This document shows, piece by piece, positions 9,162-37,481 of a stretch of 42,657 nucleotides of DNA; position 1 is the stretch's first letter; each line of letters opens with the position of its first letter. Source of the DNA: a bacterium. GTDB lineage: Bacteria > Latescibacterota > Latescibacteria > Latescibacterales > Latescibacteraceae. The notes beneath the pieces are model-generated. The model did no database searches and was not told the DNA's origin. It saw only the letters and a list, made by a program, of their open reading frames with translations. The DNA is taken from assembly GCA_021372535.1 (NCBI GenBank), contig JAJFUH010000007.1:1-42657 (forward strand), in the 5' to 3' direction. A program made the translations under genes and the position numbers.

Positions 9162-9204
9162 TTCTTCAAGTGAAGCCGGTGTGAATACAGCTCCTGTTGA
9201 AGAA
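9162..9204 (+). promoter_or_regulatory. Inverted repeat in the hcp leader
   Basis: TTCTTCAA (9162-9169) pairs perfectly with TTGAAGAA (9197-9204) across 27 bases. It lies just before the hcp ribosome-binding site GGAGG (9225-9229). It could be an mRNA-stabilising or translation-modulating hairpin, but no T-run follows, so it is not a terminator. The role is unknown. Confidence 0.3.
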
Positions 9205-9235
9205 CGGACAAAACACTTTACAATGGAGGTTTTCC

Positions 9236-9724: not shown

Positions 9725-9741
9725 CGGATGAGCGAGAATGT

Positions 9742-9780
9742 GTCGCGCCCTAGAATTATCGGGGGCGCGACGCATTTATT
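9742..9780 (+). terminator. Rho-independent terminator after hcp
   Basis: GTCGCGCCC (9742-9750) pairs perfectly with GGGCGCGAC (9763-9771) around a 12-base loop, and a T-rich tract follows. It sits 18 bases past the hcp stop, in the middle of the T6SS gene string. It would act as an attenuator that lets hcp be made in excess over tssE and the genes behind it. Confidence 0.75.
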
Positions 9781-9869
9781 TTAGGCCGATTATGCTCAAT
9801 TAGAAACTAATGAATACACCCTGATTTTTCCGCTACTTCCCATGGTATTGTTTTACGAAGGCACCCCTG

Positions 9870-10286
9870 ATGGCTGACGAACGTCTGCTGGAACGAATCA
9901 AGAACATGGAGCGGAATCCGGATTTCCGAATCGAGCGGGATATGACCCGCAAGATATTTTCCATAATAAACCATCTGCAGCGGCTGTTGAATACCCATCA
10001 GGGAAGCACATTGATTGCGGAAGATTATGGAATACCGGATATAACGAATACCCACGGGGAAAGCATTACCGAAATTTCCAGAAGGATCGAACGGACCCTG
10101 CAGGAAGTTATCATGAAGTACGAACCGCGTCTGGCGAATGTCAAGGTTTCGACCATTTCGCATGAAGACGACATTTTATCGCTTCGTTTCAAGCTTGAAG
10201 CAGTTCTCGCCACCGATAAATCGACTCCTGTGGTCCTCGAAACAGTCGTCAGCTCCGAAGGAAAAGTCAATATCTCTTCGCAATAG
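9870..10286 (+). CDS. tssE: T6SS baseplate protein TssE (gp25-like)
   Basis: TssE is a baseplate wedge subunit related to phage T4 gp25. The 138-residue protein contains the family signature: an R-x-L-x-x-L-x-N motif (LQRLLNTHQGS at about 36-46), the EDYGIPD block at about 51-57, and a helical segment ITEISRRIERTLQEVIMKYEPRL, cut here into two parts for reading: ITEISRRIERTL and QEVIMKYEPRL. The beta-rich C terminus has the usual LRFKLEAVL strand. It starts at an ATG after the hcp terminator and ends 14 bases before tssF. Confidence 0.93.
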   Translation: MADERLLERIKNMERNPDFRIERDMTRKIFSIINHLQRLLNTHQGSTLIAEDYGIPDITNTHGESITEISRRIERTLQEVIMKYEPRLANVKVSTISHEDDILSLRFKLEAVLATDKSTPVVLETVVSSEGKVNISSQ

Positions 10287-12034: not shown

Positions 12035-13017
12035 AAACGAAGCTCCTCAAAGAAGGGGAGCGTTTTACTTTTACCCAGGCGCTTCGGCTGCTGCGGTACA
12101 TCATCAGCAGGGAGAACGGCGGTATCAGCGGTTATGATGAAATCAGCCGCAGAATCCGTGTCCGCCCCTATCTGAGTCTCGATTTTCCCGAATCGGATAT
12201 CACGGGGATAGAGAAGCTTCCCGGAGATGATCCGCTATACCGGGTAACCGCGACGTTTCTGGGTCTCTACGGCGCATCTTCCCCGCTTCCGACTTTTTAT
12301 ACGGAAGATTTATTGTATGAACAGTCGGATGATGTGACGATAACCCGTGATTTCATCGATATTTTCAATTTCCCGGCTTTCAGCCTGTTTTTCAAGTGCT
12401 GGAAAAAATACCGGCTCTTTTACACGATAGTCGATGAGCCGGATGCGGATGTGGTACAGCGTCTGTACTGTCTGATCGGCCTGGAAGGTGATCAGCTCAG
12501 ACGAAAAGTCGATGATGCCGCGGGCATGCTCCGGTATATCGGGCTCCTGACACAATTTCCACGGTGCGCAGAGGGTTTGCGCTCATTGCTCATCGACAGT
12601 GTAAACGAGCCGAGCATCAGTATCGATCAGTGTGTCCCGCGGGTGACCGCCATTCCGGAAGATCAGCGCTGCTCTGTCGGAAAATCGGGGCACCGGCTTG
12701 GCGAAAACAGTTATCTCGGTTTCGAGATCGCCGACCGTATGGGAAAGTTCAGGATTCTGGCGGGTCCGCTGGACAGCGGCTCTTTTCACCGTTTTTTGCC
12801 GGACAGGCCCGCGTTTCGGAAAATGATACGCATGACACGGTTCTACCTCGATCAGCCGCTGGCCTGTGATTTCGAGTTACGAATCGATAGCGATGACATT
12901 GAGACTGCAAGGCTCGGTTCGGAAACCTGGTCGCAGCTCGGGTGGAACACCTGGATATTTTCGGAGAAGTTTTGTTCGGGGACGCTTTCGGTGACATTGC
13001 CGGAACGTGCTCATTGA
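11998..13017 (+). CDS. tssG: T6SS baseplate protein TssG
   Basis: TssG is the second core wedge protein and pairs with TssF. The 339-residue protein opens with GERFTFTQALRLLRYI at about 21-36, matching the F-x-F-x-Q-A-x-R-L-L signature of the family. It contains the block RVTATFLGLYGASSPLPTFY, in which the GLYG.SSPLP part is diagnostic, and FFKCWKKYR. The start is a GTG inside the tssF 3' end. No ATG start lies near, and the overlap is conserved in T6SS loci. A 48-base gap follows before clpV. Confidence 0.94.
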   Translation: MAGEDRRQTPAIKTKLLKEGERFTFTQALRLLRYIISRENGGISGYDEISRRIRVRPYLSLDFPESDITGIEKLPGDDPLYRVTATFLGLYGASSPLPTFYTEDLLYEQSDDVTITRDFIDIFNFPAFSLFFKCWKKYRLFYTIVDEPDADVVQRLYCLIGLEGDQLRRKVDDAAGMLRYIGLLTQFPRCAEGLRSLLIDSVNEPSISIDQCVPRVTAIPEDQRCSVGKSGHRLGENSYLGFEIADRMGKFRILAGPLDSGSFHRFLPDRPAFRKMIRMTRFYLDQPLACDFELRIDSDDIETARLGSETWSQLGWNTWIFSEKFCSGTLSVTLPERAH

Positions 13018-13065
13018 AAATACTGTACATCATTCATTTTACCTTAATCAACAAAGGAGTTTTAC

Positions 13066-15684
13066 ATGGTCACAGTGGATATGAAAAACCTCCTGCTGCG
13101 TTTGAACGCTTACTGTACGAATGCGCTGCAGTCCGCTGCCGGTCTCTGTGTTTCAAGAACACACTACGAGGTAACGGTCGAGCATTTTTTTCTTAAGCTT
13201 CTCGAAGATAACCGGTCGGACCTTCCCCTGATATTTCAGCAGTTCGATCTCGATATCGGCCGGGTGATTAAAGCGCTGGAGGATGCGCTGGAGGACAACA
13301 AGACCGGCAATACCGGCAAGCCTGTCTTCTCGCCCCTGATGCTCGATCTTTTTCAGGAATCATGGCTGGTCACATCGATAGATTTAAGCGAGAGAAAAAT
13401 ACGGTCTGGCGCTGTTCTTCTTACCTTTCTGGCGAAACCGGCTCTCTTTGCGACGGGACGGTATATCGATCTGTTCAAATCCATAAGCCGTGAACAGCTC
13501 GCGAAGGATTTCTGGAAAATCGCCAAACAGTCGATCGAGATGAAAACCGCCGAGAAGGAAGCGGCGCCCGGTGAACCCGACGCCGGAAAGCGCGAGGGCG
13601 GCTTTATAGCGAGATTCTGCAACGATTTCACCCAGAAAGCACTTGACGGCAAGATCGATCCGGTATTCGGCCGCGACAAGGAAATCCGCCAGATCATCGA
13701 CATCCTTGCCAGAAGAAGAAAGAACAATCCCATCTGCGTCGGCGAGCCGGGGGTAGGAAAGACAGCGGTGATCGAGGGCCTTGCGCTCAGGATTACCGAG
13801 GGAGATGTGCCCGATATCCTGCAGAATGTCCGGCTGATCGAGCTCGATATGGGACTCCTCGAAGCTGGCGCCGGTATGAAGGGCGAGTTTGAAAACCGTC
13901 TGAAGGGTGTCATCGGCGAAGTCAAATCGTCGGAAAAGCCCATCATCATGTTCATCGACGAGGCCCATACCCTGATCGGCGCCGGAGGCGCGGCGGGAGG
14001 GGGCGATGCGGCGAACCTGCTCAAACCGGCGCTTGCCCGCGGTGAGCTCAGAACCGTTGCCGCAACGACATGGAAAGAGTACAAGAAATATTTTGAGAAA
14101 GACCCGGCGCTTGCGAGAAGGTTTCAGCCGGTCAAGCTCGATGAACCGAGCGTTGCAGCCGCTGCCCTGATATTGAGGGGTATCAAAGCGAGCTATGAAA
14201 AGGCGCACAAGGTGGTCATCCGGAACGATGCCATCAACGCCGCCGCCGAACTCTCGGATAAGTTCATTACGGGGCGTTTCCTCCCGGACAAGGCGATCGA
14301 TCTGCTCGATACGAGCTGCGCCCGGATCAAGATAAACCTCATCGCAAAACCTCCGGTCCTCGAAGACAAGGAACGGGTTGTCCAGGCTTCTGAACGTGAG
14401 AAGAAAGGGATGGACAGGGACAGGATCAACGGAGCCGAGGTAGACGAGGAAGAGTATCAGAAGGTTCTCAAAACCATCGAAACCGCAACTGTTGAAGCGG
14501 AGCAGATCAGAGCGCGGTGGCTCAAGGAAAAAGAGGCGGCGGAGAAAGTCATCGGTATCAGAAATCAGATACAGGAGGAAGCCGATGAAAAGAAGAAGGA
14601 AGAGCTTAAAAAACAGCTCGACGAAGCCGACAAGGCGTTCGTGGAAATTCAGGGTGATGATCCCCTGATCCATATCGAGGTGAATCCCGATGTGGTAGCC
14701 CAGGTTGTGTCCGACTGGACAGGCATTCCCATGGGCAAGATGCTCAAGGATGAGGCGCAGACTATCATCAATCTCGCCGCCCAGCTGAAAGCCCGTGTCA
14801 AGGGCCAGGATCATGCGCTCGATGCGATGGCCGAAGTGATCAAGGCCGCGAAGGCGGGAATCAAGAATCCCGACCAGCCGCTCGGCGTATTTCTCCTCGC
14901 CGGACCGAGCGGTGTTGGTAAAACGGAGGTGAGCCTCACGCTTGCCGATATCCTGTTCGGAAGCGACAAGAACGCGGTGACGGTCAATATGAGCGAGTTC
15001 CAGGAAAGCCATACCGTGAGCCGTCTGATTGGTTCGCCCCCGGGCTATGTCGGATATGGCGAGGGCGGCATGCTGACCGAGGCCGTTCGCCAGAAACCTT
15101 ATTCCGTTGTCATTCTCGACGAGTCGGAAAAGGCGCACATCGATGTGATGAACCTCTTCTACCAGGTGTTCGACAAGGGGATTCTGACCGACAGCGAAGG
15201 CAAGGATGTGAATTTCAAGAATACCATCATCATCCTGACAAGCAATCTGGCCTCGGACATCATCCAGGAAATGACGAACACCGACGAAATACCGCCGCTG
15301 GATTCGCTCGTTTCCGCCATCCGTCCGGTGCTGTCGTCGCACTTCAAACCCGCGCTGCTTGCAAGGATGACGGTTATTCCTTTCTTCAGCCTGCGGCAGG
15401 ATGCATTGAAACTGATCGTTGACCTCAAACTGAAAAAGGTGCAGAAAACGCTGCTGGAGAACAACAAAATGGCAATGGACTACACCAAGGACGTGGTGGA
15501 CCAGATCGCAGCCCGCTGCACCGAGGTCGAGACCGGCGCACGCAACATCGAATACATCCTGAACGGGAATATCCTGCCGCGGATGGCGCAGGAGATTCTG
15601 ACGCATATGACGACAGGTGAGATGCCGTCCAAGGTGCAGCTCGGTGTCGACAAGAAAGGCGAATTCACGATCAAGTTTCAGTAA
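13066..15684 (+). CDS. clpV: T6SS sheath-disassembly AAA+ ATPase TssH (ClpV)
   Basis: ClpV recycles contracted sheaths by threading TssC through its hexameric pore. The 872-residue length matches ClpV/TssH. An N-terminal ClpN-type domain (about 1-150) is followed by two AAA+ modules. Walker A motifs are GEPGVGKT at 226-233 and GPSGVGKT at 613-620. Walker B is IIMFIDEAH in the first module, and SVVILDESEKA occupies the position in the second. A coiled-coil middle domain lies at about 425-525. It resembles ClpB; the T6SS context and N-terminal domain indicate ClpV. The ATG is preceded by AAAGGAG. The 3' end is 33 bases before vgrG. Confidence 0.95.
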   Translation: MVTVDMKNLLLRLNAYCTNALQSAAGLCVSRTHYEVTVEHFFLKLLEDNRSDLPLIFQQFDLDIGRVIKALEDALEDNKTGNTGKPVFSPLMLDLFQESWLVTSIDLSERKIRSGAVLLTFLAKPALFATGRYIDLFKSISREQLAKDFWKIAKQSIEMKTAEKEAAPGEPDAGKREGGFIARFCNDFTQKALDGKIDPVFGRDKEIRQIIDILARRRKNNPICVGEPGVGKTAVIEGLALRITEGDVPDILQNVRLIELDMGLLEAGAGMKGEFENRLKGVIGEVKSSEKPIIMFIDEAHTLIGAGGAAGGGDAANLLKPALARGELRTVAATTWKEYKKYFEKDPALARRFQPVKLDEPSVAAAALILRGIKASYEKAHKVVIRNDAINAAAELSDKFITGRFLPDKAIDLLDTSCARIKINLIAKPPVLEDKERVVQASEREKKGMDRDRINGAEVDEEEYQKVLKTIETATVEAEQIRARWLKEKEAAEKVIGIRNQIQEEADEKKKEELKKQLDEADKAFVEIQGDDPLIHIEVNPDVVAQVVSDWTGIPMGKMLKDEAQTIINLAAQLKARVKGQDHALDAMAEVIKAAKAGIKNPDQPLGVFLLAGPSGVGKTEVSLTLADILFGSDKNAVTVNMSEFQESHTVSRLIGSPPGYVGYGEGGMLTEAVRQKPYSVVILDESEKAHIDVMNLFYQVFDKGILTDSEGKDVNFKNTIIILTSNLASDIIQEMTNTDEIPPLDSLVSAIRPVLSSHFKPALLARMTVIPFFSLRQDALKLIVDLKLKKVQKTLLENNKMAMDYTKDVVDQIAARCTEVETGARNIEYILNGNILPRMAQEILTHMTTGEMPSKVQLGVDKKGEFTIKFQ

Positions 15685-23387: not shown

Positions 23388-24164
23388 ATGAAAAAAATCT
23401 GGGTGACAGCGCTCGATAAAGATGCACAATCAGTGCAGAAGATCCTCGGAACGATCCGTCAGTACGGGCTTGACGGCAACGGCCATTTCTGGCAGGACGA
23501 TATCAAAAATCTTGCCTGGCTCGGGCCGAAAGAGGCGCTTGCCGACAGGGAAACATCGCTCTGGGTCATTCTGTGTTCTCTGAAGAGCCTTGAATCGGAA
23601 TCGGTACGGTACGGGCTTTCACTTCTGGCCATTACCGTTCAGGCGGTGCGAGGGATCGGTTTCCCGATACTGTTTGCGGTAACCGATGGCGCTCTCGAAA
23701 TCGATAAACTGCCGACTCCCCTTCGCGGGGCTGACAGCATAGCATTCTCCAGCCCTTCACTCGGGGCGAAGATTGTGGCAAAAGCCAACACGCCGGTACC
23801 GAAAATCAGTACGGATTACCGTATCGACATCCATGCGAATCCGAATTACGGGATATGGTTCGAGGTCGGCCCGGCCGGAACTGCCGTATGGAAGGGAGCG
23901 CTCATCGGCGTTTCGGGAGGGGACATCAATTTCCACGGTGTCGGAGCGGCCGGTACCCTGCCCGAGAAATCGGTGCTTGAGTATCCCATGGAGGGTCTGA
24001 AACTTCAGCTTGGCGAAAAAGACTACAGCGCATGGGCTGTACAGAATACAATAGACGCCGGACATTCATACTATGTCCGTATCCATGACATGCCGTCCGG
24101 CATCGTTTTCGGACCGTATGCCCCGGATGATGAAGCGTCTGTCAGTGTAATCTCTCTCAGGTAA
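23388..24164 (+). CDS. Hypothetical protein in the T6SS operon, unrecognised
   Basis: I do not recognise this 258-residue protein. The N-terminal half (about 1-125) alternates strands and helices in a Rossmann-like way (MKKIWVTALDKDAQSV; SLWVILCSLKSL; GFPILFAVTDG) and could resemble a TIR or receiver-like fold; this is inference. The C-terminal half (about 145-258) is predicted beta-rich (NYGIWFEVGPAGTAVWKGAL; HSYYVRIHDMPSGIVFGPY). There is no signal peptide or membrane helix. It follows the DUF4150 gene, has its own ribosome-binding site (GGGGGA), and ends 5 bases before the RsbW-like gene, so it is probably co-transcribed with both. It could be an effector, a chaperone, or the target of the partner switch. 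Confidence 0.8.
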   Translation: MKKIWVTALDKDAQSVQKILGTIRQYGLDGNGHFWQDDIKNLAWLGPKEALADRETSLWVILCSLKSLESESVRYGLSLLAITVQAVRGIGFPILFAVTDGALEIDKLPTPLRGADSIAFSSPSLGAKIVAKANTPVPKISTDYRIDIHANPNYGIWFEVGPAGTAVWKGALIGVSGGDINFHGVGAAGTLPEKSVLEYPMEGLKLQLGEKDYSAWAVQNTIDAGHSYYVRIHDMPSGIVFGPYAPDDEASVSVISLR

Positions 24165-24169
24165 CCGGT

Positions 24170-24598
24170 ATGGAGTGCATGCGGACACATACGCTTGAAA
24201 TTGAAAACGACCTCTCGGAACTGCACCGGATACATGACTGTCTGGAGCGTCTGGGAGAAGAATGGAACATACCACCGAAGCCGGTTTTCGATATCGCTCT
24301 TACGGTTGAAGAACTGGTATCCAATGTTATTAATTACGGGTATGAGGATACCGGTAACCTCATTGTGCTCAGATTCAGCCTGGATGGTGATGTATTAAGC
24401 GTGCTGATCGAGGATGAGGGGAAGGCATTCAATCCCCTCGATATGCCTTCTCCCGATATACATGCACCGGTCGAGGAACGAAAAATAGGCGGGCTGGGGA
24501 TTCATCTGGCGAAAACGCTCATGGATTCTTTCTCGTATGAACGTAATGGCGACAGGAACCGTGTTACGGTCACAAGACGGATATCCCGAATCAAATAA
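24170..24598 (+). CDS. RsbW-like serine kinase / anti-sigma-type ATPase
   Basis: The product belongs to the HATPase_c_2 family (RsbW, SpoIIAB). Such kinases bind a target, often a sigma factor, and phosphorylate a STAS antagonist on serine. The 142-residue protein has all nucleotide-binding boxes: the N box EELVSNVINYGYED at 48-61 with Asn52, the G1 box EDEGKAFNP at 81-89, and the G2 box GGLGIHLAK at 107-115. It therefore looks catalytically intact. It starts 5 bases after the hypothetical gene and is followed 19 bases later by a STAS gene, the typical pair. No sigma factor gene is present in the window, so the target is unknown. Confidence 0.88.
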   Translation: MECMRTHTLEIENDLSELHRIHDCLERLGEEWNIPPKPVFDIALTVEELVSNVINYGYEDTGNLIVLRFSLDGDVLSVLIEDEGKAFNPLDMPSPDIHAPVEERKIGGLGIHLAKTLMDSFSYERNGDRNRVTVTRRISRIK

Positions 24599-24617
24599 AC
24601 GTGAAAGGAACATTCTG

Positions 24618-24950
24618 ATGGATATTAAGGAAGAAAGAAAAGGGCAGGTTGTCGTTCTTACAATTAACGGAAGACTCGATTCGACAAACGCTTCTCAACT
24701 CGATAAAAAAATTGAGGGATTGATCGACAGAAAAGAAAAGCAGATTCTTCTCGACTGTTCTCAGCTCGGCTACGTCAGCAGTTCGGGATTGCGGGTTTTC
24801 CTGACGGGGTTGAAAAAAATGAATGCGATTCACGGGAAATTTCTTATCTGTTCCCTTCAGGGGCCGATCAGTGAAGTATTTGACATTTCGGGATTCTCGG
24901 GAATTTTTTCAATCTATGACTCGCAGGCGAAAGCGCTGAGCGCATTCTGA
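24618..24950 (+). CDS. STAS-domain anti-anti-sigma factor (SpoIIAA/RsbV-like)
   Basis: The 110-residue product is a single STAS domain. Unphosphorylated STAS antagonists bind the RsbW-type kinase and free its target; phosphorylation on a conserved serine blocks this. The site is visible as YVSSSGLRVF, with Ser55/Ser56 in the phosphoacceptor position. The ATG at 24618 is chosen over an upstream extension to 24537 because AAAGGAA lies 7 bases upstream and the protein then begins right at the STAS fold. It is the last + strand gene, and its stop is 42 bases from the end of the convergent gene for the PP2C response regulator, which is its likely phosphatase. Confidence 0.92.
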   Translation: MDIKEERKGQVVVLTINGRLDSTNASQLDKKIEGLIDRKEKQILLDCSQLGYVSSSGLRVFLTGLKKMNAIHGKFLICSLQGPISEVFDISGFSGIFSIYDSQAKALSAF

Positions 24951-24992: not shown

Positions 24993-26192
24993 TTACTCAA
25001 AGCGCACCTTGAGTATGGAAAAATCGTCCGCCAGGGTTTCACCCGCGTTCATGTCTTTGATATAGAGCAGGAGCGCATCGATTTCAGAACCCTTCCCGGT
25101 CGGCGGATCGACGAGAAATGCCTTCAATTCATCGAGACTCCACAGCGTCCCATCCTGTTTCTGAACTTCGTATACACCATCTGAAAAAACATACAGTGTC
25201 GAAGGACGGTCGATTTTTACCGTTCTGCTCGTATAGGACGAACCCGGCAATCCGCCGATGAGAAGATTTTTGGTCATCAGCTCGGAGAACCTGTCCGGCC
25301 CGGAAATGAGCAGCCCGGGGGGATGTCCGGCTGTCGAGTATCGGAGCTCATTCGTCCTTATATTCACCACGCCGTACCAGATCGTGAAATAGAGGTTATT
25401 GTGCGACTCCATCTGAAACGAATCGTTGAGACCGGAAAGAACCTGCTCCGGTACAATAAAGTCGGTATTCGGAAGCGTTTGTGACCGCAGCGTATTGAGA
25501 GCAGACACCGAGAGCAACGCGGAACCCACTCCATGGTCGCATACATCGAGCAGGTAGACCGCAAAATGATCCTCGTCGATCCAGTGGTATCCGAAGGAAT
25601 CCCCTCCAAGCTGCGCCGACGGCACAAAACGCCACTCGGTCATGATGGGCGGTTCGGTTATCGGCGGGGGCAGAAGCGACATCACATGTTCCGCCGCTTT
25701 TACAAGCTCGGAAGCCAGTTCCTGCTGGCTTTTAAGCAGCGCTTCATAGGCCTCGTTCCGCTGCAGCAGGTTGATGTATGCTTTAGAATGGTAGCGTATT
25801 CTGGCGATCAGCTCAATCCTGTCCGGCAGTTTGACGAGGTAATCGTTCGCTCCCACCGCAAACGCATCGGCTTTGGTGCCCGCCTCTTCTTTCGAGGACA
25901 AAACGATGAGGGGTACATCCTTGAGCTGTGGATGAACCCTGAAGAATTTCACGAGGGTCAGTCCGTCGATATCCGGCATGACAAGGTCCTGAAGGATGAT
26001 CGTCGGCGACACTTCGACTGCCATCTCGATCGCTTTGGTGGGGTCCTGGCAGTAATGGAACGATATGTCCTTCTCGGACGAAAGCATGCGTTCGACAGCG
26101 GCGGCAACAATGGTCTGGTCATCGATCAGAAGGACGGTGATTTCGTAATCGGTCAGCCGTGATGATAACGAGGGGGAGGGGTTAACGGGCAT
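24993..26192 (-). CDS. Response regulator with PP2C/SpoIIE phosphatase output (RsbU/HsbR-like)
   Basis: This 399-residue protein has an N-terminal receiver domain (about 18-135) with acidic pair Asp24/Asp25, phosphoacceptor Asp69 (LQDLVMPD) and Lys121. A short coiled-coil linker (about 145-175) leads to a PP2C-type SpoIIE domain (about 180-398). Metal-binding residues are present: Asp198 in LGGDSF, Asp216 in LLDVCDHG, Asp338 in FSDGV and Asp389/Asp390. It should be an active Mn/Mg-dependent serine phosphatase switched by receiver phosphorylation. It is the last gene of the Wsp-like operon, 5 bases after cheB, with ribosome-binding site AAGGAA. Its position is that of wspR, but the output is a phosphatase and not a GGDEF domain. 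The likely substrate is the adjacent STAS protein. Confidence 0.92.
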   Translation of the reverse strand: MPVNPSPSLSSRLTDYEITVLLIDDQTIVAAAVERMLSSEKDISFHYCQDPTKAIEMAVEVSPTIILQDLVMPDIDGLTLVKFFRVHPQLKDVPLIVLSSKEEAGTKADAFAVGANDYLVKLPDRIELIARIRYHSKAYINLLQRNEAYEALLKSQQELASELVKAAEHVMSLLPPPITEPPIMTEWRFVPSAQLGGDSFGYHWIDEDHFAVYLLDVCDHGVGSALLSVSALNTLRSQTLPNTDFIVPEQVLSGLNDSFQMESHNNLYFTIWYGVVNIRTNELRYSTAGHPPGLLISGPDRFSELMTKNLLIGGLPGSSYTSRTVKIDRPSTLYVFSDGVYEVQKQDGTLWSLDELKAFLVDPPTGKGSEIDALLLYIKDMNAGETLADDFSILKVRFE

Positions 26193-26197
26193 ATCGG

Positions 26198-27214
26198 CTA
26201 TTCCTTTACTTTCATATAACGTACAATCGATTCCGTGATGGTGTCAATGGGCAGAATTTCCACAGCCGCTTTTATCTCCGCAGCGGCTTTCGGCATACCG
26301 TAAACTATAGAGGTTTTCATATCCTGTGCGATAGTGTGCCATCCTTTTTCGCGCAGCTCCAAAAGCCCCCGGGCGCCGTCTTTTCCTATTCCGGTCAGTA
26401 AAAGTGCGATACCTCTCTGCGGCCAGCAGGCGGCGAGACTGCTGAAAAACGTATCGACCGACGGTCGGTAGGGATAGTTCCGGGGCTCGGAAGTATAATG
26501 AAACGACATATCCTCTCCAACGATGAGGTGATCGTTGGTTTTCGCGATGTACACAGTATTTTCCGCCGGGCGGTCGCCCTCGCGCGCGACTGTTACGGTG
26601 AGTGCTGTCTGTTCATTCAGCCATTCGGCCAGCCCTGATGCGAATTGTACATCCACATGCTGGACGATAACGATCGATGCTCCCAATTGCCGGGGCATGG
26701 ACGAAAGAATGATCGACAGAGCTCTGGGTCCGCCGGTGGAACTGCCGATCGCCACGAGGGACGGTTGGGTTTTGGGGGTTTTTTTTGCCACGGGTGCCCG
26801 AGCGGGTATCGTATCGTTTTTACCGATGAGTTTACCAATGGTCGCAATTTTCCGCAGCAGTTCATCGGCGCCCTGTATCGAGCCGTCGCCGCCCATGACA
26901 GGCGTTCCCGCAGCATCGAGCGCCCCGTGACCCATAGCCTCGAACACTTTGGATGCGTTTCCGCTTACCGTCGCCGTCACCACGAGGATTGCGCAGGGTG
27001 TATTCTTCATTATCGTACTGGTAGCCTGAACACCGTCCATAACGGGCATGATCAAATCCATGAGAATCAGGTCGGGAGTATCTTCGGCGCATTTTTTCAC
27101 CGCTTCAGCCCCATCAATGGCAATCCATGATATTTCGTAAGACGGGACAGATGAAATGACTCTACGGAGTATTTCAACCGCCAGCATCAGATCGTTGACA
27201 ATGGCAATACGCAT
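26198..27214 (-). CDS. cheB: Chemotaxis-type methylesterase CheB (WspF-like)
   Basis: CheB removes methyl groups from, and deamidates, chemoreceptor glutamates or glutamines and gives adaptation. The 338-residue protein has a receiver domain (about 1-120) with phosphoacceptor Asp53 (LILMDLIMP), a linker, and the methylesterase domain (about 150-335). The catalytic triad is visible: Ser in GSSTGG at 157-162, His186 in VQHVD, and Asp279 in GIGKDGARG. The start MRIAIVND at 27214 is preferred; a frame extension to 27274 adds 20 residues unlike any receiver domain. AGGAGAG lies upstream. A 166-base spacer separates it from cheA. Confidence 0.93.
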
Positions 27215-27380
27215 TATCTTACCGCTCTCCTGACATGGATTATTCATGAAAATATTTTTACCACAAAGACACAAATAGATATAATGGATTGTTTATACTA
27301 TTATTAGCAGTTATTAATCGTTAACGTCCCAAATGATATAAATAAAAAACAAATCCGTGAAAATCCGCGTTTAGTCAAAT
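27215..27380. other. cheA-cheB spacer with repeat-like segments
   Basis: This A/T-rich gap breaks the otherwise tight Wsp-like operon. It contains ACCACAAAGACACAAAT and AAATCCGTGAAAATCCGCG. Both strings look, from memory, like fragments of widely dispersed intergenic repeats; this was not checked by search. No gene, clear promoter or terminator was found in it. Confidence 0.4.
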
Positions 27381-30089
27381 TCATTGAATAGATCGGGCTA
27401 AGAGGTCGTTGACCGCATCGAACAGACGGTCGTCATGAAAACTTGCCTTTGTCAGATAGTAGTCCGCGCCGGCATCGAGGCCCTTCATTCTGTCCTCTTC
27501 ACGATCCTTGTACGAGATAATGATGATCGGGATTCTGCTGAAATCCGGATTGTTTTTGATTCTGCCGATAAGCTCCAGTCCATTCATGCGGGGCATGTCA
27601 ATATCCGTTATCACAAGGTCGAACGCTTCGCGCTTGAGCAGCGTGTTCCATGCGTCCATTCCATCGACAGCGGCGGAAACCTCGTATCCCCTGCTCTGCA
27701 GCATCTTGCGCTCCGCTTCCCGCACGGTGATGGAATCGTCCACGACAAGAATCTTTTTCTTTACCGACTGGTTGACTTTCCCATTGCCGATTTTCTCCGG
27801 TTTGCCGTGAGTAACGAACTCATCGATAGACCGGACAAGGTCATCGGCATCCATGATCAGCACCGGTGAACCATCCTCGAGAATAGCGCCGGAACTGATC
27901 GTCGGTATCTTCCCGAGTCGTGCATCGAGGGGTCTGACAACCAGCTCGGCCTGACCGAGAAAACGGTCGACCACAAAGCCATATCGGTTTAACCGGTCGC
28001 TGATAATGGCAATAGGGAGCGAATCCGGCGTGTTGTCCCCTTGAGGAAGCCGCAGAATCTGCCGTGCATTGACGATTCCGATGTTTTCACCCTCGAAAAT
28101 GCATATCGGCCGGTCTTCGACCGTTTTCAGCTCCTTTGCGGAAAAATCGATGACATGTTCGATACGGGTAAGCGGGAGAGCATACGTTTCGCCGGCAATG
28201 TCCATCAGGAGAGCTCTGACGACCGAGAGCGTTATGGGAAGATGGAGATGAAACGTCGTCCCCCGTCCGGGTTCCGATTCGATCCGTATCGAGCCGCTGA
28301 CCGAGTGAAGCATCGATAAAACAACATCGAGCCCGATACCTCTTCCCGAAACTTCAGTCACCTTTTCGTGCGTGGTGAAGCCGGGAAGAAACAGAAATTC
28401 AAAGAGCTCGTCGCGGGTGAGGTTTTTAGCCATTTCATCGCTGACATGCCCGTCCCGAACCACTTTTTTCCGTAATTTCTCCGGATCGATCCCCATGCCG
28501 TCATCCTGTATGATGATATTGAGCATTCCGAACATGTGACGGGCTTCGATACGAAGCGTACCTTCCGGTTTTTTCCCGGCCGCGGCCCGTACATCAGGAG
28601 TCTCGATACCGTGATCGACAGCGTTTCGCAGAATATGGGTGAGCGGCGATTCGAGTTTTTCCAGAATATCCCTGTCCACAGGAGTAGACCCGCCCTGAAT
28701 GACAAGGTTGACTTTTTTACCGAGCCGTCTGGAAAGATCGCGAACCATTCTGGGGAAACCAAGAAGCCCGTCGGAAAAAGGAGTCATTCGGCTCGATATT
28801 ACCTCCGAATACAATTGATCAGTAAGATTTTCAATGCGTCGCGAGAAAATCTCGTACTCTTCCATATGCTGGTAGAGAATTTCACGGCTCTGCTCCAGAA
28901 GCCGGAACGTTTCATAGTTTTTTTCATAGACCTCTTCGAGCCCGGCGGTATTCTTGACTGTCACGAGAAGGGTTTCGAACGAGCTGGCAACCTCCATGTA
29001 CAGGTGTTTCAATGTGAGCAGTGATGCGGAAAACGGTTTCGCCAGTTTCGCCTGGATAAGGCACTCGCCGGTGAGTCCGAGAATCCGGTTAAGGGTGTCG
29101 GCAAGCACGCGGACAAAGGTTTCTTCCCTCGGGGCGGCTTCTTTTTTCGGCAAGGCAGAGACAAGCTGTCTCGCTTCCAGGAGTGAGGATTCGAACGGTT
29201 TCCCCGTCAGGACATCGATCAGCGAACGGGTCAGCGATTTTACCCTGTCGGATTGCGTGGACAGGGAACTGTGGATTTCCGAAGGGGTGAGCGAGGACAT
29301 CCGGGAAAATATATCGTTGCTCCGAAGCAGCAGGTCAATATGCTCCGAATGCAGGATCAGGTTCCCGTGCTGGGCAGCGGACAGTACATCTTCCATAGCG
29401 TGGGCGAGCGAAACCTCGAGGTTAAGGTTCACAATCCGTGCCGCGCCTTTTATCGAATGAGCCGCCCGCATGAGAGGTTCGATTTTTTCAGGGGTCTGGT
29501 TCTTTTCGAGCTCGACAAGGCCGCTTTCGAGAATCCGCGAGTGGGTCTCCACCTCGACACGGAAGAGCTGGAGCATGGATTCATCGGAGAATTCCCTGCT
29601 CTGCTTCGGTGCGGCTTCAGGTTCGACGGCCGGTTGTTCCGGTTTTGGTTCGGTCTGCTTTTGAGCCTGCGGTTCCGGGGAAAGCATTGTCCGGAGCTTC
29701 ACCGAAAGATTTTGTATTGTCTGCTCTTCACCCGAAAGCTGCGCCGACATCCCCGCGACCGGAGAGGAACTCAGGCGAAGGAAAATATCATTGCATTTCA
29801 GGAGCACATCGATGTGGTCTGAAGTAAGGTGTAGAGTCCCGTGCTGCGCTGCCGACAGCATGTCTTCCATGGCATGGGCGAGAGAAACGGCGAGGTCAAG
29901 CCCGACTATCCGGGCTGCTCCCTTGATAGAGTGTGCCGCCCGCATGAGCGGCTCGGTTTTCTCGGGCGACTGATCCCTTTCGAGATCGACCAGGCCGACT
30001 TCCAGCCTTTTAGCGCCGGTTTCCAGCTCAGTCCTGAACAGATCCAGCAGAGACAGGTCTGCCGGTTCACCCTGATTCGCGTTGATCAA
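27381..30089 (-). CDS. cheA: Hybrid histidine kinase CheA with two HPt domains and a receiver (WspE-like)
   Basis: CheA is the kinase of the chemosensory array. This 902-residue protein carries two N-terminal HPt domains with near-identical AAHSIKGAARIV motifs; the phospho-histidines are His53 and His211. Then come a dimerisation region, a HATPase domain (HILRNAVDHGIE; DDGMGID; GRGIGLDVV), a CheW-like domain, and a C-terminal receiver at about 778-902 with the site LVITDIDMP. A receiver fused to CheA is typical of WspE and other alternative-function systems. The start is a TTG at 30089 that overlaps the cheR-cheW stop as TTGA and has AGGAGAG upstream; no ATG is available near the N terminus. 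It would phosphorylate CheB and the PP2C regulator. Confidence 0.94.
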   Translation of the reverse strand: MINANQGEPADLSLLDLFRTELETGAKRLEVGLVDLERDQSPEKTEPLMRAAHSIKGAARIVGLDLAVSLAHAMEDMLSAAQHGTLHLTSDHIDVLLKCNDIFLRLSSSPVAGMSAQLSGEEQTIQNLSVKLRTMLSPEPQAQKQTEPKPEQPAVEPEAAPKQSREFSDESMLQLFRVEVETHSRILESGLVELEKNQTPEKIEPLMRAAHSIKGAARIVNLNLEVSLAHAMEDVLSAAQHGNLILHSEHIDLLLRSNDIFSRMSSLTPSEIHSSLSTQSDRVKSLTRSLIDVLTGKPFESSLLEARQLVSALPKKEAAPREETFVRVLADTLNRILGLTGECLIQAKLAKPFSASLLTLKHLYMEVASSFETLLVTVKNTAGLEEVYEKNYETFRLLEQSREILYQHMEEYEIFSRRIENLTDQLYSEVISSRMTPFSDGLLGFPRMVRDLSRRLGKKVNLVIQGGSTPVDRDILEKLESPLTHILRNAVDHGIETPDVRAAAGKKPEGTLRIEARHMFGMLNIIIQDDGMGIDPEKLRKKVVRDGHVSDEMAKNLTRDELFEFLFLPGFTTHEKVTEVSGRGIGLDVVLSMLHSVSGSIRIESEPGRGTTFHLHLPITLSVVRALLMDIAGETYALPLTRIEHVIDFSAKELKTVEDRPICIFEGENIGIVNARQILRLPQGDNTPDSLPIAIISDRLNRYGFVVDRFLGQAELVVRPLDARLGKIPTISSGAILEDGSPVLIMDADDLVRSIDEFVTHGKPEKIGNGKVNQSVKKKILVVDDSITVREAERKMLQSRGYEVSAAVDGMDAWNTLLKREAFDLVITDIDMPRMNGLELIGRIKNNPDFSRIPIIIISYKDREEDRMKGLDAGADYYLTKASFHDDRLFDAVNDLLARSIQ

Positions 30090-31702
30090 CGGATTATACT
30101 CTCCTGTAACGAATCGAAGAATCTGTCCTCATCGAGCAGCCCCACAGTCCTTTCATCGATGGTGAAAAGCCCCCCGGTAAGGCCGTGGGATGATTTCGAT
30201 ATGGTAGCAGGTGTTTTCGTGAGATCATCGGGAGTTATTCGTCTGACTCCCAGTACTTCATTGACGGAGAAGACAAACCGCTCGCCATTTTTTTCCACTA
30301 CAGCCATCCGTTTCATAACATTCTCTGTGGAATGCGCGCCATCTCCGGCCGGTATACCGAGGATAGTTTCAATCGAAACACAGGGTATCAGCTCGCCATT
30401 GATATTAACCAGCCCTCTGAATATCGAATTCGTGCGAAAGGGAACTGAATGAACGGGTCGGGTGTTATTCACTTCCTCGAAATAGGCGATTCTCAGGGCA
30501 AGCCATTCATCGCTGATCCTGAATACGACGACGGAATCGGTTCCCGGTATCTCGGTTCTCTTTTTCCGGGAGAGAATCTCGGTTCGTTCTTTCAGGTACT
30601 CCGGGGGTATTTCACGGTCGAAAAGGCTCTTCCCGTACCGTGCATATATCGGGCAGGCGCGGCAGTGTGACAATTCATCCAGTTTCGTGCATGTCTTGTT
30701 GCCATAAACGCCTGTCTCTTCCCAGCACAGTTCACTCGCATTTTTACTGATAGTGGCGGGAACGGTGTCGTTCGGACTTGAGTTCGTATATGGAGCGGAA
30801 TGCGCTATTATCTTTTTGGCAGGAATTTTTTTGTCGGATGTGCTTTGAACCTTGGTTGTTCCGGTCGTTGTTTTCAGATGTTTTTTCTCGGCAGCCGGTT
30901 TCTTGGCAGGTATTGTTTTTTGAAGGGCGAACGATCTCGAATGATGCACTGACTCATAGCCGGTATCCTTATAGAGAAACAGCTCGGCGCTCCCGACGAA
31001 GAGCAGACCGCCCGGAAGAAGGAGACGGTTTATGGTCGCAAGCACTGTTTCCCGCGCTTTATCCGTGAGATAAATCATGAAATTCCTGCAGAATATTATC
31101 TCGTACGGCCTGTTGCCTGCAAGATAATCCGGGTGAACAAGATTGTCACGGTGGAAGCGCACAAGCCCCGTAATCGAGTCATCGAGTTTATACTTCTGAT
31201 CGATCCTGCCGAAGTAACGGTCGCGAAAATCCTCTGTTTTACCGCGGAATGACTCTCTGCCGTAGAGACCGCCCGCCGCTTTTTCCAGTCCCTCTTTGCT
31301 GATGTCGACCGCATCGATGGTGAATGCATCCCCGGACAGGCCTGCATCGATGAGGGTCATGGCTATCGAATATGGTTCCTCTCCGGTGGAACAGGCGGCC
31401 GAAAGTATCCGCAGTACCTTTCCCTGCCGTGCGGGCAGCCAGTTCTCACGGACATGGTTGCTGAGGTAACGGAAGGGTTCCGCGTCGCGGAAGAACCATG
31501 TCTCATGGACAACCGCCTGCTCGATCAGACGGTCGAGTTCTTCCGGTGATGTGTCGAGGATTTCCCTGTACCGGAGAGCGGAAGTGATACCGAGACGCTT
31601 CATCTCGTCGGAAACCACACGATCCATGAATTTTTCGCCGAGCGATTCTATATTCAGCCCGATAGTGTCCTGAAGCAGTTTCTCGATTACCATGAACTCC
31701 AT
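30086..31702 (-). CDS. CheR methyltransferase fused to CheW (WspC-WspD fusion)
   Basis: The 538-residue protein joins two functions that are separate genes (wspC, wspD) in Pseudomonas. Residues 1-262 are a CheR methyltransferase with HETWFFRD at 66-73 and the SAM site SAACSTGEEPYS at 101-112. A Lys/Thr-rich linker spans about 263-320. Residues about 323-538 are a CheW domain preceded by the four-cysteine segment CWEETGVYGNKTC..HCRACPIY (Cys326, Cys338, Cys347, Cys350), which also occurs in WspD-type CheW proteins. One protein would thus both methylate receptors and sit in the array as a coupling protein. The stop overlaps the cheA start, indicating translational coupling. Confidence 0.9.
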   Translation of the reverse strand: MEFMVIEKLLQDTIGLNIESLGEKFMDRVVSDEMKRLGITSALRYREILDTSPEELDRLIEQAVVHETWFFRDAEPFRYLSNHVRENWLPARQGKVLRILSAACSTGEEPYSIAMTLIDAGLSGDAFTIDAVDISKEGLEKAAGGLYGRESFRGKTEDFRDRYFGRIDQKYKLDDSITGLVRFHRDNLVHPDYLAGNRPYEIIFCRNFMIYLTDKARETVLATINRLLLPGGLLFVGSAELFLYKDTGYESVHHSRSFALQKTIPAKKPAAEKKHLKTTTGTTKVQSTSDKKIPAKKIIAHSAPYTNSSPNDTVPATISKNASELCWEETGVYGNKTCTKLDELSHCRACPIYARYGKSLFDREIPPEYLKERTEILSRKKRTEIPGTDSVVVFRISDEWLALRIAYFEEVNNTRPVHSVPFRTNSIFRGLVNINGELIPCVSIETILGIPAGDGAHSTENVMKRMAVVEKNGERFVFSVNEVLGVRRITPDDLTKTPATISKSSHGLTGGLFTIDERTVGLLDEDRFFDSLQESIIR

Positions 31703-31797
31703 GGTTTGCTCCGACAGATTATGATAGTATATAATGCAATAAAACAGCCCTCATATTCCCCGGGGGCCGTTTTCCGGTTCAAGCCGGCTGTACTGTG

Positions 31798-32250
31798 CTA
31801 TTTATTTACAAACAGTATCTGCTGAAGGGATTCCGGTAACAGTTTCATCGGATCGATCAGTTGAATCATACCGTCGGTATCGGTGGTAATCGTGCCGAGA
31901 TATGGTGTATTGTCCGATTCGACGCCGGGAGAATGAAAATCAGCTTCGGAAAACATCATCGTATCGGTGACTTTTTCAGCAAGAAGGCCGAGAATATGAA
32001 GCTCCTTATCTGAACCCGTGCAATAGACCAGTATGATCCGGGTGCTGAGGAGAGGCTTTGACCGGGAGCCGGCAAGGAGCACAGTCAGATCGATCACCGG
32101 CACTATCGAGCCGCGATACTTGAACAGTCCTGCAATATAGTCCGGCGAGCGGGGGATTTTTTTGAAACGGACCATCGATACGACTTCGATAATCTGACGA
32201 ACATCGATGCCGTATCGTTCTTTTTCGCATGTGAACATGAGTAGAAGCAT
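31798..32250 (-). CDS. cheW: CheW coupling protein (WspB-like)
   Basis: CheW links receptors to CheA. The 150-residue product is a single CheW domain: CEKERYGIDVRQIIEVV at about 8-24, the conserved FKYRGSIVPVIDL at about 43-55, and LGLLAEKVTDTM. It starts with an ATG 23 bases after the upstream receptor gene; Met5 is an alternative, and no strong ribosome-binding site is visible. A 95-base gap follows before the CheR-CheW gene. Together with the CheW half of that fusion, the operon encodes two coupling domains, as in Wsp (WspB and WspD). Confidence 0.9.
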   Translation of the reverse strand: MLLLMFTCEKERYGIDVRQIIEVVSMVRFKKIPRSPDYIAGLFKYRGSIVPVIDLTVLLAGSRSKPLLSTRIILVYCTGSDKELHILGLLAEKVTDTMMFSEADFHSPGVESDNTPYLGTITTDTDGMIQLIDPMKLLPESLQQILFVNK

Positions 32251-32273
32251 AGCATGTCATTCGTGCCGGTTTC

Positions 32274-34406
32274 TCAGTCGTTTTGCGAGAAACGTGACAC
32301 CTCCTGTAAATTCTCCACAGCTTCGGTCAACTGATCGGTTACTTCTTTAAATTCGATGAGCGAATCACGAACCTGGATGGCTGTAATATTAAGCTGCTGC
32401 ATCGCATCGCTGATCTGTCCGGCGCTGTTGGATTGCGATTGCATGCCCTGGTTAAGCGACTCGAATTGTGGTACGAATTCACGCGAATGCTCGATAATGG
32501 TTCCCAGTTCCTCGCTTATCCGCGCGGTCTTCTCGGAACTTTCCTTCGCAAGTGTATGGTAGTTTTCGACACTGGCGACGCCGTCTTTCATGGCATTTTC
32601 CATCTCCAGTATCATTGCCTCGATATTAAGGGCCGCCACTGCGGTCTGGTCTGCGAGGCGACGGATTTCGGATGCCACCACCAGGAATCCTGCTCCGTAT
32701 TCGCCTGCATTTACGGCTTCTATGGAAGCATTGAGGGAGAGCAGGTTCGTCTGGTCGGCAACATTGGTTATCGTGGTAATAACCCCGGTGATAGTCGCGG
32801 CTTTTTCACTGATCATTTTCAGTTTGTCGTTCAAATCGGATGATGCAACGAGGAGCGTCCGCATGGTCGTTCGGATGTTATCCAGCCCCTGAATACCGGA
32901 ATTTGCAAGTGTGGCTGACTCCACAGACATTTTGGTGACCTGGTTCATGGTCGAGGCGAGGTCTTTGACATTGGAGCAGATGTGGGTGCTGGTCGAACGG
33001 ACATGGGTGGTCGATGCGGCCTGTTCGGCGGCGATTGTTTCGAGCTGCCGCATGGAAGTGACAATCCTGGACTTTGATTCGGAGACCTTGTCGCTTGCGG
33101 TGCGCAGACGAGTGATGATTGCATCCAGATTGGAGATCATGGTGGTAATTGCCTGAAACAGCACCGTTACCTCGTTCCGGTTCTTTCCGGTCGAACTGCC
33201 GGCGCTCTTACCGCTTCCGATTCCCATGCGATAAGCGCTTTCGAGGCTTGTTTTTGCTTCCTTGAGATTTCCGGACGCTATCGATTCAGCTGCATGCGTG
33301 ATAACGCCGAGCGGACGTGTAATACCCCGTGAAACAAGAAATGCAATTCCCCACGACACACTCAGCGCAATGATGATGAGGAGATAGGCAAGCAGCCTGC
33401 TCCGCTCGTTTGTGGCAATTTTCTTTTCGAGCAGAATATCGAGCTCGTGAATTGCAACCTGATTGAATGCCGAGCTCGTGTCGAGCATCTTTTCGCCGAG
33501 ACTCGTGAACTCGACAACAGTATCCGGGGGATGTTCTTCGCTTACAAGGTTTTTCAACAGCGAGGTGAATCCGCTGACTGCGGAATCATAGTTTTCAAAA
33601 ACAGGAGGAAGATTATTCTGCAGAGACTGGCTCTTGCCATAAAAATATTCGTCTTCCTGCAGGGCGAAGGAGAGATTTTGCCGGAGGAACCGCATATAGT
33701 AGTTTTCCGTAATATCAATGAATTCGGCGAATGTTATTCTGTCCTCCTGGGTCAGTCTGCCGGATTCGAGAGCTTTCATGCCATACAGCAGCATTTCACT
33801 GCACCGTTCCTGCATCTGGGGGATACCCACAAAAACATTGTAGATAAGGTGGTAGGTATCCATGTCGGGGTCACGAACAAGATTTGATGTATTTGCAACG
33901 TGGCTTGTCAGGGTTGTGATGCCTTTGCTGAGCTCAGTGTGTGCGGTGTCAATCTGCTCGGGTGACATGGCTTTCCAGTTTGCCTGAAGCGATTGCCATC
34001 TGGCGAAGAGTTCTCCGGGGTAATACTGCCCCATATCGATCTTTGACAGGCTTTGTCTGTCTATCTGGAGGGCTTTCTCATACTTCGTGGTTTTTACAAG
34101 AAGGTCGGAGAACGCGGTATCGATTTCCTGTGCTGCGAGCTCACAATTGTTCTGCTGAGCCATATCGCCGGATACGGAAAAATGGATATATCGGCGGTGT
34201 TCGGGCACCATCTCCGTGAGTTTCGCGAGCGGTTTTGATACCTCGCTGCCCATCAGTTCCCGCCGGGCGAAACGAATGGTGTTGTTGAAACCCGAAGTGA
34301 CGAAATAAAAGAGAATTGAGAGCGGCAGAATATAGGTAAGGCTGCTGATTAACAGCTTGTGGGAAATCGGCAGATTGTTCAGATAGTTTTTCATATACTC
34401 ATACAC
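32274..34406 (-). CDS. Methyl-accepting chemoreceptor, WspA-type signalling domain, helical periplasmic sensor
   Basis: This receptor has 710 residues. One membrane helix lies at about 16-38, then a periplasmic helical domain with no Cache fold visible (about 40-335), a second membrane helix at about 338-360, a HAMP domain, and a long cytoplasmic signalling hairpin. The tip DQTNLLSLNASIEAVNAGEY near residue 550 and the following RRLADQTAVAALNIEAMI segment are WspA-like. The first in-frame start is a GTG at 34406; the ATG at 34394 (MKNYLNNLP) is equally plausible, and neither has a clear ribosome-binding site. It lies 38 bases after the other receptor gene. The ligand is unknown. Confidence 0.9.
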   Translation of the reverse strand: MYEYMKNYLNNLPISHKLLISSLTYILPLSILFYFVTSGFNNTIRFARRELMGSEVSKPLAKLTEMVPEHRRYIHFSVSGDMAQQNNCELAAQEIDTAFSDLLVKTTKYEKALQIDRQSLSKIDMGQYYPGELFARWQSLQANWKAMSPEQIDTAHTELSKGITTLTSHVANTSNLVRDPDMDTYHLIYNVFVGIPQMQERCSEMLLYGMKALESGRLTQEDRITFAEFIDITENYYMRFLRQNLSFALQEDEYFYGKSQSLQNNLPPVFENYDSAVSGFTSLLKNLVSEEHPPDTVVEFTSLGEKMLDTSSAFNQVAIHELDILLEKKIATNERSRLLAYLLIIIALSVSWGIAFLVSRGITRPLGVITHAAESIASGNLKEAKTSLESAYRMGIGSGKSAGSSTGKNRNEVTVLFQAITTMISNLDAIITRLRTASDKVSESKSRIVTSMRQLETIAAEQAASTTHVRSTSTHICSNVKDLASTMNQVTKMSVESATLANSGIQGLDNIRTTMRTLLVASSDLNDKLKMISEKAATITGVITTITNVADQTNLLSLNASIEAVNAGEYGAGFLVVASEIRRLADQTAVAALNIEAMILEMENAMKDGVASVENYHTLAKESSEKTARISEELGTIIEHSREFVPQFESLNQGMQSQSNSAGQISDAMQQLNITAIQVRDSLIEFKEVTDQLTEAVENLQEVSRFSQND

Positions 34407-34444
34407 GCATACACGTGACGGGGAATAGTGCGATCACTGTTCTG

Positions 34445-36664
34445 TTATTCCATGATCCTGAATCGGGAGACTTCGTTCTGGAGTCCCTGAACAGCCTCAT
34501 TCAACTGGTCTGTCGCCAGTTTGAATTCATGGAGCGATTCCTTTGTCTGTTCGGCGGTTTCCGAAAGTTGAACGATGGCTTCGCTGATCTGATGAGCGCC
34601 GTCTTCCTGCCCGTGCATTCCTTCTTTTGCAGCTTCGAAATCCGGAACCAGAGCCCTCACCTGTTCGATGATACCGCCGAATTGCTCGCCGATGGATTCC
34701 AGCTCGTGCACGCCTTCACGGACTTCATCGGTGAACTTGTCCATTTCCATCACCCCCGAAGATACAGAGGACTGCATCTCCTTCACCATGTATTCGATAT
34801 CCCCTGTGGCAATGGATGTCTGGTCTGCAAGGCGGCTGATCTCCTGGGCGACAACTGAAAATCCTTTACCGTATTCTCCCGCTTTTTCTGCTTCGATGGC
34901 AGCGTTGAGAGAAAGGAGATGGGTCTGGTCGGAGATTTTGCTGATGGTTATTCCTATGCTCGAAATTTTCTTCGTTTTTTCATTGATTATCGCCAGCTTT
35001 GAGGAAATTTTGCTGGTTGCATCGACAAGACGGTTCATGACCGTCTCCATGTTATTCAGATTGGATCGTCCGCTGTCGGCTCTGGTCGCCGTATTGTCGA
35101 CCGTTTCGCTTACTTTGTCCATGGTATTAGCCAGTTCGACAGCGGTCGAGGCAATTTCTTTGCTTGTGACCGAGACTTCTTTGGATGATGCCGCCTGTTC
35201 GGAAACTGTGGCCTGAAGTTGTTTGATCGATGCCGAAATCTCGGTGGCGGATGTCGTTACCTGAATACCCGAGCGATGTACCTGGCCGATCAGGGAATTG
35301 AGGCTTTCCGCCATAGTACCGAAGGCTTCGAGCAGCTGTACGGTTTCATCGTGGTTCTGTATAAAATGTTCTTTTTGTTTTTTCCGGCCCGATTTCATTG
35401 AAACGTCCGTCAATTCTTTTCTGGCGCCCGATACATCACCGGCGGCGATCTTTTTCGCCACCCTGGTAATGAGATCGAGCGGTTTGACCATACGATTGCC
35501 CATATAGTTGGCAAAGATAGTTGCAATTACTATGATTATGAATCCGCCGATAATCAAATGGAACAACAGTCTCGATGTAGCCTTGTCTATCTCATATTTT
35601 GCCTGTTGGTAGTCTTCCTCATAAATACCCGCGCCGATTACCCAGTCCCATGGTTTGAAATATACAATTGCAGCGATTTTATTCCGAACTGTATCCTCGC
35701 CGACGTTTTTCCATGGATATTTTTCGTACGCAACCTCGCCTTTTCCTAATGGAAGCGCTTTTTTGATGATGGATTGAACAAAGTAGTTTCCCTCTGAATC
35801 GACAGCATCCCAGATATTTTCCTTGTCACGTTCGCCATCTTTTGAGATTATGTACGAACCCCTGTTTCCCCCGGTTCCCTGGAGAACCCAGACATATCCG
35901 GTTTTGCCGACAACGATATTCATGATGGCTGTCCGGAGCGATGTAACGGATTCCAGTTTTTCCCCGACATACAGCATGCCGATGATTGTATCGTTTTTGT
36001 CCTGTATCGGCTCGTACGATGCGATATACCATGCGTTTACCACATAGGCAAGACCTCGATACGTTTCCCCTTTCAGCACTTTCTCGATGACCGGGTTGAC
36101 GGCACCGTTCGGATTGACTGCGGGGATATACGTGCCGGTGGCTCTGGTGTTATCGAGATTCTCGACATTCGTGGCGATTCTCAGCATATCGCCGCGATCA
36201 TTCATCCGCTGAAATATCGTGCATGTTCCCCCAACGAGTTTTTTTACCTCATCCACAACCGGTGTCGCTGTCGAAAAATCACGGCTCTTTCCGAACCATG
36301 TCCGTCCGATATTCATCCTGGGCAGCTTGAGTCGCTGCAATGCATTATTATACTGGTTGATCACTTCCCATTCGACAGTTTCCGATCCGATGTTTATGAA
36401 CCCGTTTTGTTTGATGATCTCCCGCGCAACATTGAGGTCGTTATCGATTTTTATCTGAACAAGATCGTTTGTAACCTCACACAGACCACTGACATCTTTG
36501 GCAATCTGGGCAATATTCAACCTGCTGATTTTATCGAGCTCGTCTTCCGCCTTTTTCTTCGTTATTCCCTGGAATTTCACAATCAGGATATACATAATCA
36601 TCACAGGAATAATCACGGAGAGTATTACCAGACCGATGATCTTTTTTCGCATGGTAAGGTTCAT
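34445..36664 (-). CDS. Methyl-accepting chemoreceptor, Cache sensor and WspA-type signalling domain
   Basis: This 739-residue receptor has membrane helices at about 8-28 and 368-390. They flank a large periplasmic Cache-type domain (about 35-365; [31 protein letters not shown] and GYVWVLQG are typical strands). HAMP and a signalling hairpin follow. The tip [20 protein letters not shown] and the segment [19 protein letters not shown] are close to the WspA signature as I know it. The ATG at 36664 has AAAGGA 7 bases upstream. Being next to a second receptor with a different sensor, it suggests the array integrates at least two inputs. Confidence 0.92.

Positions 36665-37404: not shown

Positions 37405-37481
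<77 letters not shown>

Follow-up and report, generated by a model that had tools for sequence, protein, structure and literature searches.

A partner-switching kinase and antagonist at the end of a T6SS gene string, beside a Wsp-type operon whose output protein carries a PP2C domain

Introduction

Known Wsp systems take surface contact as their input. Their outputs fall into two kinds: across 794 surveyed Wsp systems, only WspR, with a GGDEF domain, or WspH, a histidine kinase, was found (PMC8552884). In Pseudomonas putida, Wsp input influences the K1-T6SS, through WspR, which makes c-di-GMP, and FleQ, which represses transcription (PMC10482370). That review, a 2023 account of how T6SSs are regulated, deals with inputs from two-component systems, c-di-GMP and phosphorylation, and makes no mention of partner, anti-sigma or STAS.

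Partner switches are built from three protein families, as in RsbU/RsbV/RsbW (sigma-B) and SpoIIE/SpoIIAA/SpoIIAB. RssB acts on RpoS. RssB-type REC-PP2C proteins of Pseudomonas (PDB 3eq2) are response regulators feeding a partner switch, and in Shewanella it is chemosensory genes (Che1) that feed one, CrsR/CrsA, which acts on RpoS (PMC9855816). The Bordetella triad BtrU/BtrV/BtrW, again PP2C, STAS and RsbW proteins, is tied to a secretion system: T3SS secretion requires it, and its action is on secretion itself, not that of a simple sigma switch (PMC7498569).

Here we describe a contig of 42,657 nucleotides from a bacterium of the Latescibacterota (the window, meaning the whole stretch analysed), in which Wsp, partner-switching and T6SS-5-like genes stand together. 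This combination of known kinds of system is not described in the Wsp survey, the T6SS review or the other open-access papers that we found. With Wsp systems (WspA-F plus WspR or WspH), the window has in common the gene order, hybrid CheA, CheB, CheW and a receiver about 60% identical, and it differs by a PP2C domain in place of the GGDEF or histidine kinase output, a WspC-WspD fusion and an extra receptor. In contrast to the P. putida Wsp/K1-T6SS connection, its output has no attached diguanylate cyclase. It contains the same three families as RsbU/V/W and SpoIIE/AA/AB with intact motifs, but no sigma client gene nearby, SSSG rather than DSSG in the antagonist, and a phosphatase with a chemosensory receiver. 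That receiver is WspR-type, and full-length similarity to RssB is moderate. As in Shewanella, we propose that chemosensory genes feed the switch. The secretion system is a T6SS whereas that of BtrU/V/W is a T3SS, and the btr locus, for which no chemosensory input is noted, has in addition a gene for the ECF factor BtrS.

The T6SS string and the pair that closes it

The left part of the window reads as follows.

Within 54-23322, plus strand: T6SS string of tssK (cut by the contig start), tssL, tssM, tssA, tssB, tssC, hcp, tssE, tssF and tssG (Pfam matches)
Within 54-23322, plus strand: T6SS string continued, with clpV/tssH, vgrG, DUF2169-pentapeptide (TagAB-5-like), pentapeptide (TagB-5-like), DUF3540 and PAAR-like genes (Pfam matches)
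23388-24164, plus strand: 258-residue protein of unknown fold, the last T6SS-accessory gene before the pair (42% identical relative in Caballeronia NK8)
24170-24598, plus strand: RsbW-type serine kinase/switch protein (PF13581, E 2.8e-24; PDB RsbW 6m36; N, G1 and G2 boxes)
24618-24950, plus strand: RsbV-type STAS antagonist (PF01740, E 1.5e-19; TIGR00377 above cut-off; SpoIIAA structures; acceptor motif YVSSSGLR)

The contig starts inside tssK, and T6SS genes are missing at this left end. The TagAB-5/TagB-5/DUF3540/PAAR-like string after vgrG makes the cluster T6SS-5-like, and it is co-linear with the TagAB-5/TagB-5/DUF3540/DUF4150 locus of Burkholderia savannae and with the cluster of Caballeronia sp. 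NK8. It is the only VipB-bearing T6SS among the 64 genomes of its phylum that were searched. The PpkA/PppA/Fha pathway is not represented: none of these three genes was found among the window ORFs scanned, and T6SS_FHA_C is absent across the whole genome (95.9% complete, 236 contigs).

The initial annotation had recognized here a partner-switching kinase and antagonist within a T6SS operon, with no sigma factor and no PpkA, PppA or Fha gene in the window, and our profile searches and ORF scans agree with it on all of these points. The kinase, of 142 residues, is a HATPase_c_2 protein whose top PDB match is RsbW 6m36 (E 7e-8), and its ATP-binding boxes are all intact, as had been claimed (N-box EELVSNVINYGYE, G1 DEGKAFNP, G2 GGLGIHL). 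The STAS protein matches SpoIIAA structures in PDB (E 2e-11). Its phosphoserine motif, described earlier as intact, does hold the acceptor serine; the Asp of the classical DSSG is replaced, likewise in most relatives. The ORF is listed from 24537, and an ATG at 24618 is preceded by AAAGGA; this ATG is the likely start, giving a 19-base gap. With 5 bases before the kinase, and both genes on the same strand as the T6SS accessory genes, the spacing first reported is correct.

Elsewhere in the same genome (contig C71, 8700-11600), three STAS and two HATPase_c_2 ORFs follow one another in an arrangement that resembles a stressosome (RsbR/S/T) locus.

A Wsp operon with a PP2C output

The pair is not an orphan, as a phosphatase gene lies next door, at the end of a complete Wsp operon on the opposite strand (24993-36664). 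The initial annotation of the pair had included neither this phosphatase nor the operon.

24993-26192, minus strand: REC-PP2C phosphatase in the wspR position (Pfam Response_reg and SpoIIE; PDB WspR 3bre/3i5a; domain trees; alignments)
25710-26192, minus strand: WspR-like receiver and coil of the REC-PP2C protein, residues about 1-161 (PDB WspR; alignments)
24996-25697, minus strand: PP2C/SpoIIE domain of the REC-PP2C protein, residues about 166-399 (Pfam SpoIIE; alignments)
26198-27274, minus strand: WspF, CheB methylesterase (REC and CheB_methylest; 48-55% to WspF)
27381-30089, minus strand: WspE, CheA-REC hybrid kinase (Hpt, HATPase, CheW and REC; 42-45% to WspE)
30086-31702, minus strand: WspC-WspD fusion, CheR joined to CheW (CheR and CheW domains; residues 5-311 WspC, 326-536 WspD)
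31798-32250, minus strand: WspB, CheW (PF01584; 35-40% to WspB)
32274-34406, minus strand: extra methyl-accepting chemoreceptor (HAMP and MCPsignal)
34445-36664, minus strand: WspA-like chemoreceptor with Cache sensor domain (Cache_3-Cache_2 and MCPsignal; signalling half 43-51% to WspA)

Read from 36664, the order is WspA-like receptor, extra receptor, WspB, WspC-WspD fusion, WspE, WspF and REC-PP2C, which matches gene by gene the wsp operons of Azoarcus, Mesorhizobium, Cupriavidus and the Hyphomicrobiales plasmid UR115. The wspABCDEF set is present in the order of these four operons, with WspC and WspD fused and one receptor added. In the four compared operons, WspC and WspD are separate genes; the fusion has the CheR-CheW stretch shortened.

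A WspR-type receiver stands at the operon end, as in Wsp systems, attached to a PP2C domain and not to the GGDEF of WspR or the histidine kinase of WspH. The protein has 399 residues, and its gene is convergent to that of the STAS protein, with 42 bases between the two ORFs. On the one hand, its receiver and coil are 57-64% (about 60%) identical to WspR, residues 15-161 match the WspR crystal structures 3bre/3i5a (E 1e-52), and in the receiver tree the domain groups with WspR (support 100/99). On the other hand, the part from about residue 166 is 46% identical to a phosphatase of the Rhizobium jaguaris T6SS locus and 45-48% to one of a Nostoc plasmid, and groups with both in the PP2C tree (support 99/98), a tree flagged for long branches, which makes the group more secure than the exact order of branching within it. 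It is a SpoIIE/PP2C phosphatase with the metal-binding Asp residues (SpoIIE domain, E 3e-36), and its GGD, DVCDHG, SDG and DD motifs are common to the R. jaguaris phosphatase. As the two domains have separate tree neighbours, we read the output protein as a domain swap in which the WspR receiver was kept and GGDEF replaced by PP2C. No further WspR-type receiver turned up anywhere in the genome besides that of REC-PP2C (60%), and no comparably close REC-PP2C relative was found in other genomes of the phylum.

Genomic context

The arrangement is carried by a single draft genome (the same 236 contigs). Binning error was considered as the source of the contig and rejected, the stretch 37.6-42.6 kb being co-linear with a same-genus genome at 66-73% DNA identity, and the G+C content of the island being like that of the rest of the genome. 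A chimeric join is possible. The first 36.7 kb (from position 1) may have been acquired as an island, since other genomes of the phylum yielded neither a T6SS nor a comparably close REC-PP2C. Between the Wsp operon and the genes co-linear with the same-genus genome there is a tRNA-Met (37405-37481). A tRNA-linked island was considered on this ground and not adopted, as the matching stretch of that relative has no tRNA.

Triads at other secretion loci

Complete PP2C/RsbW/RsbV triads also stand at T6SS loci of other bacteria. On a Caballeronia NK8 plasmid, the triad is directly beside tssB of the same T6SS-5-like cluster, and on a Rhizobium jaguaris plasmid it is directly beside tssA; as in the window, no sigma gene was found at either. 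The phosphatase of the former has its own Cache sensor, unlike that of the window, and the phosphatase of the latter is without a receiver domain. The R. jaguaris T6SS further differs from that of the window in having Fha, a PpkA-like kinase and a sigma-54 activator. These two gave the strongest TssC matches in a set of 435 plasmid records, and the rate of full triads at sampled plasmid T6SS loci (two of 18, with a lone STAS gene at one more) is biased, both triad loci being top matches in a sample that was not random. In Azospirillum B510 a lone STAS gene has tssG and hcp on either side. When the RsbW proteins of Caballeronia and R. jaguaris served as queries, no further T6SS-linked cases came up among plasmids. 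Because the Caballeronia PP2C falls in a different clade from that of the window in the domain tree, the association of triads with T6SSs may have arisen convergently and not by inheritance of a single module.

Three further loci were encountered in these searches. Near the R. jaguaris triad (11170-13545 of the locus) lies another phosphatase, carrying Cache and HAMP domains, that could be a membrane sensor for the switch. A Nitratidesulfovibrio vulgaris plasmid (19547-20315 of the locus) has STAS and RsbW-type genes inside a T3SS operon, flanked by sctR and a transglycosylase gene. Finally, plasmids of Salmonella (7986-9979) and Pantoea (7986-9956) carry a SpoIIE-STAS-kinase triad, with STAS motif DSSG, beside DUF3131, glycosyltransferase and OpgC genes.

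The window's own pair has its nearest relatives away from T6SSs. Its RsbW and STAS proteins are about 45% identical to those of non-T6SS pairs of their own phylum and of Bacteroidota/Chlorobiota, and 28-38% to T6SS-linked ones; neither the RsbW tree nor the STAS tree resolved the origin of the pair. One scan of genome contigs gave four close matches, none with a T6SS, and the relatives within the phylum adjoin RR-PP2C, sensor kinase, periplasmic binding protein and ammonium transporter genes. This likeness to non-T6SS pairs, and the presence of same-family triads beside ammonium-transporter and polysaccharide genes, would fit a Wsp-fed partner switch that regulates an unrelated process (biofilm, polysaccharide or metabolism) and merely adjoins the T6SS. 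We consider such a chance neighbourhood quite improbable, given that the pair follows the T6SS accessory genes at 5 and 19 bases on the same strand, that the PP2C domain is closest to the T6SS-locus phosphatase and the Nostoc phosphatase, and that triads recur beside tssA and tssB in two other bacteria.

Sigma factors

Profile searches of the genome found no sigma-70 gene on the contig, and the kinase has no client sigma gene as neighbour. Nor did a conserved sigma gene, which the initial annotation had said would tell against its reading, appear beside orthologues: an RpoD/FliA-like ORF was found at none of about 50 relative loci (20 from the phylum, four from other genomes and about 25 from plasmids), in a scan that would miss ECF factors. 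The other contigs hold 11 sigma-70-type genes, comprising RpoD/RpoS-like, FliA/WhiG-type and nine ECF-sized factors.

These genes leave room for a classical anti-sigma switch acting in trans, in which the kinase would hold a FliA/WhiG-type or ECF factor and the Wsp signal would free that factor to transcribe the T6SS along with other genes. Besides the supply of FliA/WhiG-type and ECF-sized factors, two precedents speak for it: sigma factors are the classical partners of RsbW-family proteins (PMC11418112), and the Shewanella Che system is linked to the CrsR/CrsA switch on RpoS (PMC9855816). We nonetheless find this arrangement doubtful, as neither of the genome's two sigma-70 region-3 proteins scored above cut-off as a SigB/F/G-type factor, neither the window nor the relative loci yielded a sigma gene (the latter in the RpoD/FliA-like scan), and the triads in T6SS operons of other bacteria lack one as well.

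A proposed circuit

The reading that we prefer, with moderate confidence and on the strength of gene content and arrangement, is that the pair forms the kinase and antagonist of a three-protein partner switch, that the phosphatase is the output of the adjacent Wsp-type array, and that the T6SS is most likely what is controlled, probably via a T6SS or accessory client. The receptors would activate WspE, which would phosphorylate the WspR-like receiver of REC-PP2C; the active phosphatase would then strip from the STAS serine the phosphate placed there by the RsbW-type kinase, and the dephosphorylated STAS protein would capture the kinase, which would release its client. What the sequence itself shows is the full set of components with intact motifs, the domain replacement in the WspR-type protein, the order of the genes and the recurrence of triads at other T6SS loci; from these we infer each of the biochemical steps, the sign of control and the kind of client. 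The T6SS is the most likely regulated process because the kinase and STAS genes end the T6SS string and because sigma-less triads occur at T6SS loci of unrelated bacteria. Evidence against the circuit is that the phosphatase sits in a separate, convergent operon.

The earlier suggestion that the kinase acts post-translationally on a T6SS or accessory protein survives in part: such a protein, rather than an adjacent sigma factor, is probably the client, while the post-translational action is something that we infer. The 258-residue protein had been put forward for this role, and is a weak candidate. In Caballeronia NK8, a 42% identical relative is flanked by PAAR and tssJ/tssK; the R. jaguaris T6SS locus yielded none, though it has a triad. 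Searches of Pfam, NCBIfam and PDB gave no match, and an AlphaFold model from the single sequence, made without an alignment, was uninformative (pLDDT 35); we therefore do not adopt it as the client. Weak, too, is the idea that the switch acts in place of the PpkA/PppA pathway, since Fha, PpkA and PppA are likewise missing from the gene list of the B. savannae T6SS-5-type locus, and R. jaguaris has Fha and a PpkA-like kinase together with a triad.

A more far-reaching version of the circuit would make this a third Wsp class with PP2C output, in which the array signal leads to STAS dephosphorylation and takes the kinase off a T6SS component, so as to arm or fire the T6SS post-translationally without c-di-GMP, a sigma factor or PpkA/PppA. 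We offer it tentatively, as rather unlikely to hold in full.

Implications

With a PP2C domain in place of the diguanylate cyclase, this array would add a third output to the two known for Wsp systems, and would offer a natural instance of a chemosensory system rewired through exchange of a domain. Viewed alongside the triads near T6SS genes in one Betaproteobacterium and one Alphaproteobacterium, and alongside BtrUVW in a T3SS, it suggests that secretion machines may be under the direct control of STAS/RsbW switches. The binding partner of such a kinase, a question also at issue for BtrW, becomes testable in a second type of machine.
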